A DNA stretch of 64,000 nucleotides from Curtobacterium flaccumfaciens (GTDB lineage Bacteria > Actinomycetota > Actinomycetes > Actinomycetales > Microbacteriaceae). Under the pieces are notes generated by a model. It did no database searches. It was not told where the DNA came from and saw only the letters and a program-made list of their open reading frames with translations. Position numbers and translations under genes: made by a program. Of the stretch, positions 40,960 to 50,491 are shown piece after piece; within the stretch, counting starts at the first letter, position 1; each line of letters starts with the position of its first letter. Location: NCBI RefSeq assembly GCF_004361695.1, contig NZ_SNVW01000011.1, forward strand, positions 62,001 to 126,000, in the 5' to 3' direction.

Positions 40960-43900
40960 GTGTGGCGAGCGGACAGGGTGACCGACGGCGAGGGCGACGT
41001 GAACGACGGCGTCCGCGTCGAGGGCGCCGTCGCGCCCACCAACCAGCGGGATCAGCAGGATCAGCACGACCAGCAGGGGGAGCAGGACCAGCGGGGGCAG
41101 CAGGAAGAGACCGTCGTGAGTGACGAACCCGACCGCACCCTGCGTCCGGAACTGCAGCTCACGAGTCCGCAGGCGATCAGCCTGGGTGATCCGCGCCTCC
41201 AGGCCGGCAACGCCGCCGAACCCGCATGGGACGTCTGGCGGAAGCAGCTGACCGGCGTCGGCGGGACCAGCCCCCTCACGCACTTCTCCGACCACCCGCG
41301 GGCCCGGATCGAGCTCTCGACGACGCACCCCGGCGGCCTCGCCCAGTTCATCACCGGCAAGACCACGCTGCTCTCCAGCCTCATCCGCGACGAGGTGGCG
41401 CTCCGTGCCGCCCGCATCGCCGCCGCCCAGGTCGAGGCGAAGGGCACCGAGCTCGCCACCGTGCGCGGCATCGACGCCGTGAAGCTCGGCATCGGCATGG
41501 CCGACTGGCAGCACGGCGACGAGCAGTTCCGCGGCCCGGTCCTCCTCCGCCCGCTCGCGATCCGTCGCCACGGCCGTGACTTCGAGGTCCGCCTGCTCGG
41601 CGAACCCGTGCTCAACCCCGGCCTGGCCGATGCCCTGCACGAGCAGTTCGGCGTCATCCTCGACGCCCAGTCCTTCGTGGCGCTGGCGCAGCAGGACGGC
41701 TCGTTCACGCCGAACCCGGTCATCGACCGCCTCCGTGGCCTGACCGCGCACATCCCGGGCTTCTCGGTCCACGCGCGCCTCGTCGTGTCGACCTTCGCCG
41801 AGGTCGCGACCGGCATGGTCGAGGACACCGAGGACCTGTCGCACCCCGTGCTCGACGCCCTCGCCGGCAACCCCAGCGCCAAGTGGCAGGTCGAGCAGTC
41901 GTACCACCCGGTCGAGCAGACCCCGTCGGACGAGCGCAGCCCCGAGACGGACACGCTCCTCCTCGACGCGGACGACGAGCAGGAGAACGTGATCGCGCAG
42001 ATCACGGCCGGCAACTCGATCGTCGTCAAGACCCTGCCCGGCACCGGTGGCACGCAGACCATCGTCAACGCGCTCGGCGGCCTCGTCGCCGCGAACAAGC
42101 GCGTGCTCGTCGTCAGCCCGCGCCGGGCCACGCTCCGTGGGATCGCCGCCCGCTTCGCCGAGGTCCAGCTGCCCGGCGTCGCCGTGACGCCCGGCACCCT
42201 GCGCCGCGACGTCGTGCGCTCCATCGCGCGCAACGAGAAGGCATCGCGTCCGAACCTGCGCGAGGTCGACGACGCCCTCGTCCGGCTGCGGAAGGTGCTC
42301 AAGGACTACCGCGGCTCGCTGACCCGCGTCGACCCCGACTTCCGCGTCTCCGTCCTCGACTGCCTCGTCGAACTGTCGCGGCTCTCGCTGCTGCCGGTGC
42401 CGCCGTCGACCACGGCCCGGCTCTCGAAGACGTCGGTGACGTCCATGGTCGAGGGGCGCTCCCGCGTCGCCGAGACGATGGTCAGTGCCGCGAACCTCGG
42501 CGAGTTCCGCTACGGCCCGGACGACTCGCCCTGGTACGGCGCGAAGTTCGGCTCGAGTGACGGCGCGCAGCGTGCCCACAAGACGGCGAAGGACCTCGAC
42601 ACCGACGGCCTGCCGACCCTGCTCCGCCGTGCCCACGACCTCGTGGACTCGACGCACATGCGCCAGTTCACGACGATCAACGAGCTCGGCATCTACCTGC
42701 GCCTGCTCACCGAGATCCGGGACACCCTCGACCGCTTCCTGCCCGTCGTCTTCGACCGTTCGGTCTCCGAGCTCGTGGCAGCCACCGCCCCGCGCGGCGA
42801 GGGCGCCCCGATGTCGGCCACGAACCGCCGCCGGCTGAAGAAGCTGGCGCGCGAGTACGTGCGGCCCGGCGTGCACGTGTCCGACCTGCACGAGGCGCTC
42901 ACCCGCGTCCAGCAGCAGCGCGTGCTCTGGCAGCGCTACGTCGCCGCCGGCGTGAACCCCGAGGTCCCCACCGGCATCGCGGACGTCCAGGTGCTCTTCT
43001 CGAACGTGGTCGAGGACCTCGCGCGCCTCGACGAGCCGCTCGGCCGCACCGCGCGTGAGACCCAGCTGGCGAACGTGCCGATCGACGAGCTCGTCCCGAC
43101 GATCGCCCGCCTCGCCGAGGAGTCCGACGTCCTGCACAACCTGCAGGAGCGCACCGAGCTCATGCAGACCCTGCGCGACCTGCAGCTCGAACCGCTCATC
43201 ACCGACCTGGCGAACCGGCACGTGCCGGACACCCACGTGCCGGCCGAGCTCGAGCTCGCCTGGTGGCAGTCCGCGCTCGAGACCATGCTCGAGTCCGACC
43301 GGGCCCTGCTCGGCGCGAACACCGACATGCTCGACCGGGTCGAGGCCGACTTCCGCCTCGTCGACGACGCGCACGCGGCCGGGGTCTCCCAGGGTCTGGC
43401 GTGGCAGCTCGCCGAGAACTGGAAGGTCGGGCTCGTCGACTGGCCGGACGAGGCCGTGGCGCTCAAGACGCAGCTGAAGGAGGGCGCGATCAGCTCGCGC
43501 CTCCTGCAGGACTCCGCCCCGCACCTGTCGCGCTCGATCGCCCCGGTCTGGCTCGCCTCGCCGTACGAGGTGTCGCAGATCGCGGACACCATGCCCTTCG
43601 ACACGGTGATCCTCGTCGACGCCGGTGCCGTCACCATCGCCGAGACCGTCGGCGCCGTCCGCCGCGCCCGGCAGACCGTCGTGTTCGGCGACCCGGTCAC
43701 GCAGACCCCGTCGCCGTTCCGGATCGCGGTCGACCCGGCGCACCGCGCGCTGCAGGTCGACGAAGCGGTCCTCGACGCCTTCCACGCCGACTCGGCGCTC
43801 GCGAAGCTGTCGACGCTCCTGCCGACGCTCTCGCTCACCCGGTCGTACCGCGCCGGCGGCGAGGACCTCGCCGAGCTCGTCAACCGTCGCTTCTACGGCG

Positions 43901-44838
43901 GCCGCATCGAGTCGCTGCCCTGGGCCGGTTCGTTCCTCGGGCACGGGTCCATCGCGCTCGACTACGTCAGCGACGGCAAGGCCGTGCCGGACCCCGAGTC
44001 CGGTGCCGTCGAGAGCGTCGACGCCGAGGTGGACCGTGTCGTCCGCCTCGTCATGGACCACGCCCGCACCCGGCCGACCGAGTCGCTCATGGTCATCACC
44101 GCGTCGGCGAAGCACGCCGTCCGGGTCGAGCAGGCCGTGCTCACCGCGGCACAGGGGCACAAGGACCTCACCGAGTTCGTGATCGGGGACCGCGCCGAGC
44201 CGTTCATCGTCGCGACGCTCGAGCAGTCCGTCGCGCAGAGCCGCGACCGCGTCGTGTTCTCGATCGGCTACGGCCGGACGCCGCACGGCCGCGTGCTGCG
44301 GGACTTCGGTCCGCTCGGCAAGCCCGGCGGCGAGCGGCTGCTCGCGGTCGCGATGACCCGTGCCCGTCGCTCGATGGTGATCGTGACGTGCTTCCAACCG
44401 TCCGACATCGAGGCCGAGCGCATGGGCCACGGCACCGTCGCGTTGGCCGAGATCCTCGCCGAGGTCCGGGCGCGCACCACCGCTGAGTACGTGCCGGACG
44501 ACTCCGACCCGCTGCTCGTCGACCTGGCCCGCCGGCTCGAGATGCGCGGCATCCCGGTCGCCCTCGGCCACCGCGGCAAGCTCGGCCTGGTGGCCGCGCA
44601 CGGCGGGGTCTGCGTGACGATCGAGACCGACGCGTCGCTCGTCAAGGGCTCGCTGCGCGAGTCCCTGCGGCTCCGGCCCGAGGTGCTCCGTCGTCTCGGC
44701 TGGCACTACGTGCGCGTGCACGCGTTCCAGCTGTTCTCCGACCCGGACCGGGTCGCGAACACCGTCGCCGCCGTGCTCGGCGTCGACCGTGGCGCCACGC
44801 AGGAGATCAGCATCCCTCCGATTCCCGCACGCCGATGA
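40960..44838 (+). CDS. SF1 helicase-like protein with dead ATPase motifs and endonuclease-like tail
   Basis: 1,292 residues. The middle and C-terminal parts follow DNA2/NAM7-type SF1 helicases: motif I region TLPGTGGTQTIVNALG (from 358), motif II region DTVILVDAGAVTI (Asp887), RSYRAGGEDLAELVNRRFYG and motif VI VAMTRARRSMVIV. The P-loop lysine is glycine (Gly364) and the motif II glutamate is alanine (Ala888), so ATP hydrolysis is unlikely. The last 100 residues (LARRLEMRGIPV; CVTIETDASLVKGSLRESLR; LRRLGWHYVRVHAF) resemble the MTES_1575 nuclease domain, also with catalytic positions altered. A Gln-rich head precedes the fold. Such fusions are linked to defence or repair; here a structural or sensing role is more likely. 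The small gene at 44835 overlaps its stop. Confidence 0.75.
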   Translation: MWRADRVTDGEGDVNDGVRVEGAVAPTNQRDQQDQHDQQGEQDQRGQQEETVVSDEPDRTLRPELQLTSPQAISLGDPRLQAGNAAEPAWDVWRKQLTGVGGTSPLTHFSDHPRARIELSTTHPGGLAQFITGKTTLLSSLIRDEVALRAARIAAAQVEAKGTELATVRGIDAVKLGIGMADWQHGDEQFRGPVLLRPLAIRRHGRDFEVRLLGEPVLNPGLADALHEQFGVILDAQSFVALAQQDGSFTPNPVIDRLRGLTAHIPGFSVHARLVVSTFAEVATGMVEDTEDLSHPVLDALAGNPSAKWQVEQSYHPVEQTPSDERSPETDTLLLDADDEQENVIAQITAGNSIVVKTLPGTGGTQTIVNALGGLVAANKRVLVVSPRRATLRGIAARFAEVQLPGVAVTPGTLRRDVVRSIARNEKASRPNLREVDDALVRLRKVLKDYRGSLTRVDPDFRVSVLDCLVELSRLSLLPVPPSTTARLSKTSVTSMVEGRSRVAETMVSAANLGEFRYGPDDSPWYGAKFGSSDGAQRAHKTAKDLDTDGLPTLLRRAHDLVDSTHMRQFTTINELGIYLRLLTEIRDTLDRFLPVVFDRSVSELVAATAPRGEGAPMSATNRRRLKKLAREYVRPGVHVSDLHEALTRVQQQRVLWQRYVAAGVNPEVPTGIADVQVLFSNVVEDLARLDEPLGRTARETQLANVPIDELVPTIARLAEESDVLHNLQERTELMQTLRDLQLEPLITDLANRHVPDTHVPAELELAWWQSALETMLESDRALLGANTDMLDRVEADFRLVDDAHAAGVSQGLAWQLAENWKVGLVDWPDEAVALKTQLKEGAISSRLLQDSAPHLSRSIAPVWLASPYEVSQIADTMPFDTVILVDAGAVTIAETVGAVRRARQTVVFGDPVTQTPSPFRIAVDPAHRALQVDEAVLDAFHADSALAKLSTLLPTLSLTRSYRAGGEDLAELVNRRFYGGRIESLPWAGSFLGHGSIALDYVSDGKAVPDPESGAVESVDAEVDRVVRLVMDHARTRPTESLMVITASAKHAVRVEQAVLTAAQGHKDLTEFVIGDRAEPFIVATLEQSVAQSRDRVVFSIGYGRTPHGRVLRDFGPLGKPGGERLLAVAMTRARRSMVIVTCFQPSDIEAERMGHGTVALAEILAEVRARTTAEYVPDDSDPLLVDLARRLEMRGIPVALGHRGKLGLVAAHGGVCVTIETDASLVKGSLRESLRLRPEVLRRLGWHYVRVHAFQLFSDPDRVANTVAAVLGVDRGATQEISIPPIPARR

Positions 44839-45134
44839 CGGACCGACCGAGTCGGCGGGCCTCCCGGCCCGCCGGGCCGGTCACGCCGGAGACGGACCAG
44901 CTGGTGGGCACGTGGACGCGGGCCGGCGACGCGACGTCAGCCGCGCCTCCCGTCCGATCAGCGACGCCGGAACGCGCGACGGACGACCAGCCGGGAGGCG
45001 CGGGTCGACGCCGCCGACGCGTCACCACCCAGCCCGCTCCGGGCTCCGACCCCGCACCGGCCCCGGAACCGGCGCGCCACCGCGACGGCGAGAACGACGC
45101 CCGGCTCCTGGGGGACGTCCCTCCCCACTGGTGA
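44835..45134 (+). CDS. Small Pro/Arg-rich protein
   Basis: 99 residues, probably disordered, rich in Pro, Arg and Ala, ending in RLLGDVPPHW. The ATGA overlap with the helicase-like gene and its position before the phosphatidyltransferase gene support it as real. Family not recognised. Two copies of the GGGAGGCGCGGG-type repeat lie inside it in opposite orientations (about 44943 and 44994) and could fold in the mRNA. Confidence 0.5.
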   Translation: MTDRPSRRASRPAGPVTPETDQLVGTWTRAGDATSAAPPVRSATPERATDDQPGGAGRRRRRVTTQPAPGSDPAPAPEPARHRDGENDARLLGDVPPHW

Positions 45135-45153: not shown

Positions 45154-45744
45154 ATGACTGACACCGCGCGGGAGCGACCCGACTGGCAGACCTGGCCGAA
45201 CCTGATCTCGCTGTTCCGGCTGCTGCTGATCCCGGTCTTCGTGTGGCTCGTCGTCGCCGGGCACCCGGGCTGGGCGCTCTTCGCGCTCGTCGTCATCGGG
45301 GTGAGCGACTGGGCGGACGGCTTCATCGCCCGCCGCTTCGACCAGGGCTCGAAGCTCGGGAAGGCCATCGACCCGATCGCCGACCGGCTCGCCATCATCG
45401 CGATCGTGCTCTCGCTCGTGCTCACCGGGCTGCTGCCGTGGTGGGTCGTCGCCGTCGTGGTCCTCGTCGACCTGGTGCTCGTGGTCCTGTCGAGCGTGCT
45501 GTTCCACGGCAACCCCGACCTCGACGTCACGTGGACCGGCAAGATCCGGTCCGCGCTGCTGTTCGTCGGACTGCCGGTGCTGCTCTTCTCCGCCGTGCAC
45601 GCCGTCGACGAGAACGCGCCGTGGGTCCGGATCGTCGCGCTCGTCTTCGTGTACCTCGGCACCGCCGGCCACGTGCTGGCGGGCGCGCAGTACGCCGTCG
45701 CGATGGTCGCGAAGCGCCGCGCAGTCGGGGCGCCCGCGCGCTGA
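45154..45744 (+). CDS. CDP-alcohol phosphatidyltransferase
   Basis: 196-residue integral membrane enzyme. The family motif is complete: SDWADGFIARRF followed by GSKLGKAIDPIADR, giving DxxDGxxAR...GxxxDxxxD. Several helices follow. It makes a phospholipid from CDP-diacylglycerol and an alcohol; PgsA (glycerol phosphate) or cardiolipin synthesis are both possible. A palindromic repeat (R2) after the stop may end the transcript. Confidence 0.9.
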   Translation: MTDTARERPDWQTWPNLISLFRLLLIPVFVWLVVAGHPGWALFALVVIGVSDWADGFIARRFDQGSKLGKAIDPIADRLAIIAIVLSLVLTGLLPWWVVAVVVLVDLVLVVLSSVLFHGNPDLDVTWTGKIRSALLFVGLPVLLFSAVHAVDENAPWVRIVALVFVYLGTAGHVLAGAQYAVAMVAKRRAVGAPAR

Positions 45745-50415: not shown

Positions 50416-50491
50416 GGGGCTATGGCGCAGTTGGTAGCGCGTCTCGTTCGCAATGAGAAGGTCAGGGGTTCGAATCCCCTTAGCTCCACCA
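50416..50491 (+). tRNA. tRNA-Ala (anticodon CGC)
   Basis: 76-nt cloverleaf with encoded CCA. The acceptor GGGGCTA pairs with TAGCTCC and carries the G3-U70 wobble that identifies alanine tRNAs. D arm GCGC...GCGC, anticodon loop TTCGCAA (anticodon CGC, reading GCG) and T arm AGGGG-TTCGAAT-CCCCT are all regular. A strong hairpin follows. Confidence 0.97.

Follow-up and report, generated by a model that had tools for sequence, protein, structure and literature searches.

A helicase-shaped protein without its ATPase residues, retained almost throughout an order of Actinomycetes, and a small neighbour protein as its probable partner

What does a helicase-shaped protein do once the residues that should drive it are missing? 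The question is raised by a gene of Curtobacterium flaccumfaciens (Microbacteriaceae), found in a contig stretch of 64,000 nucleotides that was analysed as a whole and is called here 'the window'. Its product, of 1240 residues, is encoded by nearly all sampled genomes of the order, including those of about 1 Mb, and has no named function. Default annotation makes it a helicase, but helicase action is very probably impossible for it. A literature search for an earlier report on the pseudohelicase gene found nothing relevant. The original prediction, made from the sequence, had proposed a selected non-catalytic function with the overlapping small gene as a possible partner, and had suggested that intact orthologues would instead mean a decaying copy.

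The features of the locus are collected in Table 1; residues of the helicase-shaped protein are numbered from position 41113 (P0001, window positions 41113-44838). The gene had been thought to begin at 40960, which was not borne out. Homology to other genera starts at about residues 4 to 17 of P0001, and the GTG at 41116 is preceded by an SD-like AGGAAGAG at 41102-41109. This GTG is therefore the likely start, and the Gln/Asp-rich stretch 40960-41112 probably lies outside the coding region. The only tRNA gene within the window, a tRNA-Ala (CGC), is located at 50416-50491.

Table 1. Features of the pseudohelicase locus, in window coordinates
Feature	Position	Strand	Remark
Pseudohelicase gene; DUF4011-like N-terminus, dead SF1B core, dead MTES_1575/Vsr-like nuclease-like C-terminus	41116..44838	+	
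N-terminal segment, residues 65-95 (..THPGGLAQFITGKTTLLSSLIRD..)	41305..41397	+	Most conserved part across the order's dead families
Degenerate Walker A, LPGTGGTQT	42034..42060	+	Lys replaced by Gly313 (42049-42051)
Degenerate motif II	43615..43620	+	Val835-Asp836 replacing Asp-Glu
Degenerate motif V	44221..44247	+	EQSVAQSRD against ERVQGDERD
Motif VI, VAMTRARRS	44347..44373	+	Retained
MTES_1575 (Vsr-like) nuclease-like domain	44587..44772	+	First Asp replaced by Gly1158, Glu1171 kept
Small Pro/Arg-rich tail protein, 99 aa	44835..45134	+	Start overlaps the helicase stop (ATGA)
C-terminal motif ENDARLLGDVPPHW of the tail protein	45090..45131	+	Conserved

Of what an active SF1B helicase should possess, the window protein has the UPF1-like SF1B fold but neither the Walker A Lys nor the DE of motif II. 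In the alignment with intact orthologues, Walker A reads LPGTG-G-TQT, with Gly in the Lys column; this is the residue that had been reported, correctly, as Gly364. Motif II reads FDTVILVDAGA against FDVVVFDEASQ in intact orthologues. It is non-canonical, as predicted, but the Glu column had been assigned to Ala888, whereas it is occupied by Asp836, next to Val835 in the Asp column (886/887 in the earlier numbering). In motif V, QGDERD has become VAQSRD. The Arg of motif IV and the TRAR of motif VI are kept, in agreement with the retained SF1 scaffold that had been described. As for the nuclease-like C-terminus, said to lack clear catalytic residues, its first Asp is indeed lost, but its Glu is present.

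These losses are shared by the whole family. Among 53 non-redundant members, the Lys column contains Gly in 34, Ala in 8, Ser in 4, Val in 4, Ile in 2 and Thr in 1, and Lys in none; in motif II the Asp column is Val, Leu, Ala or Met, and the Glu column holds Asp in 52 members. The orthologue comparison that had been proposed gave the same answer, Lys being found in 0 of 84 scorable family orthologues and DE in 0 of 85. In the set of 53, the Walker A window without its Lys nevertheless lies at the 98.9th conservation percentile and motif III at 98.1, and the Arg residues of motifs IV and VI are present in 53 and 52 members, respectively. These alignments show a lasting loss of the Walker A Lys, of DE in motif II and of motif V, with the helicase fold, the P-loop shell, the arginines and, most of all, a DUF4011-like N-terminal segment conserved. 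The possibility that a misplaced alignment conceals the true P-loop elsewhere was discarded: the shell stands at the expected place, it forms a strand-loop-helix in the predicted structure, and every family aligns. The replacement of Lys by Gly in Walker A is by itself no proof of lost ATP binding.

Outside Microbacteriaceae the picture changes. Families are designated below by our own labels (f5, f7 and so on) except for Dermatophilaceae (f4) and Micrococcaceae (f2), which were assigned from close named sequences; f1 is taken to be Microbacteriaceae and the genus to be Curtobacterium. The P-loop pocket is eroded in f7, f8, f47, f48, f50, f52 and f57, and also in the most streamlined members of Microbacteriaceae. 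Across the dead families, conservation does not peak at the ATP site; residues 65-90 are at the 99.7th percentile. The first Asp of the nuclease, lost throughout Microbacteriaceae, is kept in most Micrococcaceae and Dermatophilaceae. Copies from Micrococcaceae (L054, L175 and others) have a dead ATPase, with the first nuclease Asp kept in 55 of 65 and the Glu in 61 of 65. Since both residues are mostly kept, the nuclease may have outlived the motor in that family.

Structure prediction, also suggested at the outset, recovered a UPF1-like SF1B fold in which the strand-loop-helix at the P-loop is kept (AlphaFold; pLDDT 87.4, pTM 0.76). Compared with UPF1, IGHMBP2 and Dna2, the model gave VIA Z values of about 20 over 455-513 residues. 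Together with SETX, these are the nearest solved folds (VIA Z 19-21, taking the best of each), but they are active ATPases with 14-16% identity to the window protein, which is without ATPase residues. A sequence search for solved relatives yielded nothing meaningful, only chance matches to AlgE. With Pfam, the window protein had sub-threshold matches alone, to AAA_11, AAA_12 and MTES_1575 (PF18741, 23.2 bits against a gathering score of 38.2), and no match to DUF4011 (PF13195) at E values up to 1. The DUF4011 gathering score of 22.2 was passed by an intact orthologue (27.6), a dead Micrococcaceae copy (23.2) and a dead f26 copy (29.0). Because the intact orthologue of Pedococcus cremeus (L172) scores above the cut-offs for DUF4011, AAA_11, AAA_12 and MTES_1575, the ancestral architecture can be given as DUF4011, an SF1B helicase and a Vsr-like nuclease.

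An orthologue was present in 60 of 60 genomes of the genus, in 197 of 199 genomes of the family (85 of 85 genera sampled), and in 247 of 248 genomes of the order (86 of 86 genera), the last being counts from an HMM search in which some matches may be paralogues. Beyond the order, but within the class, the full-length form was found in all sampled genomes of f26 and in single genomes of f13 and f33. Every sampled genome of the genus has an open frame, and so have the reduced genomes of 0.9-1.5 Mb. Whether the copy is dead or intact, mscL, fmdB, 5-FCL and galU follow downstream in an unchanged order and mostly with unchanged orientation, and at least one of the four was near the locus in 17 of 20 and 44 of 50 loci in two comparisons. 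Here synteny was assessed by tblastn with named window genes; clustering of flanking ORFs was confounded by antisense ORFs at 72% GC. In the window, the small gene and mscL are separated by a CDP-alcohol phosphatidyltransferase gene (45154-45744), of which no homologue was present among the 20 compared neighbourhoods from other genera.

In a FastTree phylogeny computed without the motif columns, in which deep branches are not firm, nearly every family forms a clade, f47 being the exception. Synteny and tree together show that dead and intact forms are one vertically inherited locus, and they rule out paralogy, that is, intact homologues being different genes. Intact motifs (GKSQT/DEAS/QGDERD) occur almost exclusively in the small family f5 (4 of 4) and in most Dermatophilaceae, where Lys is present in 36 of 41 scorable copies. 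The Lys state changed at least four times on the tree; the changes are read as losses, because a joint regain of all motifs is implausible. Two dead copies, L168 and L170, are nested with full support among the intact Dermatophilaceae copies. An apparent Lys in a further family (L231) was discarded, the sequence there being PPGSEKFST, with no P-loop. The contig of one Micrococcaceae-type copy (L215) carries the label of an Acidobacteria MAG, probably through a binning error. Such a range from intact to dead orthologues at one locus, with several separate losses, constitutes a natural series for the passage from enzyme to scaffold.

Rough dN/dS values were obtained by NG86 from few pairs: 0.03-0.06 within the genus, 0.02-0.05 in 7 of 8 pairs of the dead Micrococcaceae (one pair at 0.10), and 0.08-0.29 in the intact Dermatophilaceae. 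The dead Dermatophilaceae pair L168/L170 gave 0.385, at high divergence. On these estimates the dead forms are more tightly constrained than the intact ones. The selected non-catalytic function that had been proposed is strongly supported by order-wide retention, conserved catalytic loss and a dN/dS that stays at 0.02-0.06 in most close pairs of dead copies.

The small Pro/Arg-rich gene is real, and its product has a conserved C-terminal ...L..D.PPHW. Across 229 loci, this tail is fused to the helicase as its C-terminus in 84, encoded by a separate small ORF in 111, and not seen in 34, some of these only because the flank was short. For the separate tails, the start codon is at most 20 nt from the helicase stop in 101 of 111, and the overlap is of the ATGA type in 48. 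In Arthrobacter, a fused form (L175) coexists with forms in an overlapping frame (L178, L181 and L183), suggesting repeated fission and fusion at the helicase stop. The fusions and the near-universal proximity of stop and start favour the small gene as a partner, as originally envisaged; fusion of neighbouring genes can also be incidental. The pattern L..[DE].PPH[WY] has a single occurrence in the genome of the window, at the pseudohelicase locus, and in 16 genomes 8 of 8 matches were at the helicase gene or within about 4.4 kb of it. In a second sample, a wider tail pattern matched the locus in most genomes of the order.

Proteins with W-G-[DE]...PPHW are, however, present without the helicase in f23, so that helicase and tail are not strictly interdependent and the tail has a wider role. 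The ending WG[DE]...L..[DE].PPHW at a stop codon is widespread in Actinomycetes (C-termini of L054, L059, L241 and L249; L298, L318 and L320). The tail protein matched no family in Pfam or NCBIfam, and the titles and abstracts listed by a literature search contained nothing relevant to the PPHW motif. Because this short conserved end also stands alone in other Actinomycetes, the partner of the tail should be directly fishable.

Retained at one chromosomal locus almost order-wide and with hardly any change, the ATPase-dead, helicase-shaped protein very probably has a non-enzymatic job, carried out together with the small neighbour protein. Our best explanation, with a probability of about one half, is that a catalytically dead SF1B helicase-nuclease of the UPF1/IGHMBP2 type has turned into a housekeeping gene that the order inherits vertically. 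Its product would now be a scaffold of RecC/AddB type, binding nucleic acid independently of ATP and docking a partner through a tail. Viewed more broadly, and with even chances of being right, the locus would be a two-part, order-wide housekeeping module, in which a dead UPF1-like body is joined by a PPHW tail that switches between fused and overlapping forms. It would then represent a new kind of factor in Actinomycetes, one that acts on nucleic acid or nucleoprotein independently of ATP and descends from a helicase-nuclease whose motifs are still intact in one family. The helicase body would bind DNA, RNA or nucleoprotein without hydrolysing ATP, as RecC and AddB do; the PPHW tail, acting in cis or in trans, would dock a conserved cellular partner; and the two together would serve as adaptor or scaffold. 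With a theoretical pI of 5.8, the protein as a whole is acidic, which was counted against nucleic-acid binding, although its 1A and nuclease-like domains are basic.

The P-loop shell of Microbacteriaceae may retain a nucleotide ligand that is not hydrolysed. This leads to a possible but rather doubtful alternative, a nucleotide or alarmone switch, in which LPGTGxTQT and VD would hold ATP, GTP or some other nucleotide without hydrolysing it, and would thereby control the opening of the scaffold. The conservation of the shell, of motif III and of both Arg residues in that family is what such a switch would need, as is the strand-loop-helix geometry preserved in the model. But the eroded pocket in seven other families and in streamlined members of Microbacteriaceae implies that nucleotide binding is not the function shared across the order.

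Somewhat less likely still is a role against phages or plasmids, with the protein as a dead member of the ProA/Hhe helicase-nuclease defence families acting as sensor, decoy or regulator. The best matches in the NCBIfam and PADLOC libraries were ProA (5.9e-89), Hhe and PDC-S37, all partial, and the intact orthologue scores higher with ProA (822 bits). The window protein, however, reaches 299.2 bits with ProA (NF058533) and 132.4 bits with Hhe (NF042953), far below the equivalog cut-offs of 1500 and 2000 bits. Its genome contains no other match to the pseudohelicase query, so that no active paralogue was found for it to regulate. Present-day defence is made less likely by the fixed, vertically inherited locus with its housekeeping synteny and by retention in streamlined genomes. 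A 'defence-derived' origin, as originally suggested, is supported as far as homology to the anti-phage ProA/Hhe architecture goes; a current defence function fits the core locus poorly.

An active motor using unconventional residues is improbable: the fold and motifs IV and VI are kept, but Lys, Asp, Glu and motif V are jointly lost, with diverse replacements among families. Finally, intact orthologues, which had been named as the sign that an active helicase is decaying into a relic, do exist in Dermatophilaceae, but retention across the order, open frames even in reduced genomes, and a dN/dS within the genus that is lower than in the intact clade rule decay out, the dead versions being the more tightly constrained.

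The reading as a dead scaffold has precedents. In RecC (of RecBCD) and AddB (of AddAB; see also PMC4824097), a dead SF1 helicase and nuclease body serves as the subunit that recognises nucleic acid. Here, too, selection has kept a helicase and nuclease body that is dead, but RecC and AddB belong to the UvrD-like branch of SF1, whereas the window protein is UPF1-like and no partner helicase gene was seen adjacent to it. Deinococcus PriA and yeast Utp25 are described as pseudohelicases with a retained non-catalytic role (PMC4504706, PMC9539457); they come from other helicase families, and neither is known as a core gene of a whole order that is coupled to a tail. In the HEPN/SF1-helicase/Vsr-nuclease proteins of MTES_1575 type, an SF1 helicase is combined with a Vsr-like nuclease (PMC3710099), but these carry additional HEPN, transglutaminase and wHTH domains, unlike the window protein. 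A search of the literature found no paper on PDC-S37. ProA/PDC-S37 and Hhe likewise have an SF1B core followed by an MTES_1575-like nuclease; their models are 1550-1911 positions long, and the best stretch of the window protein covers part of the profile. What sets the gene described here apart from ProA/PDC-S37 and Hhe is that it is a core gene, inherited vertically in conserved synteny, and that its motifs are dead.
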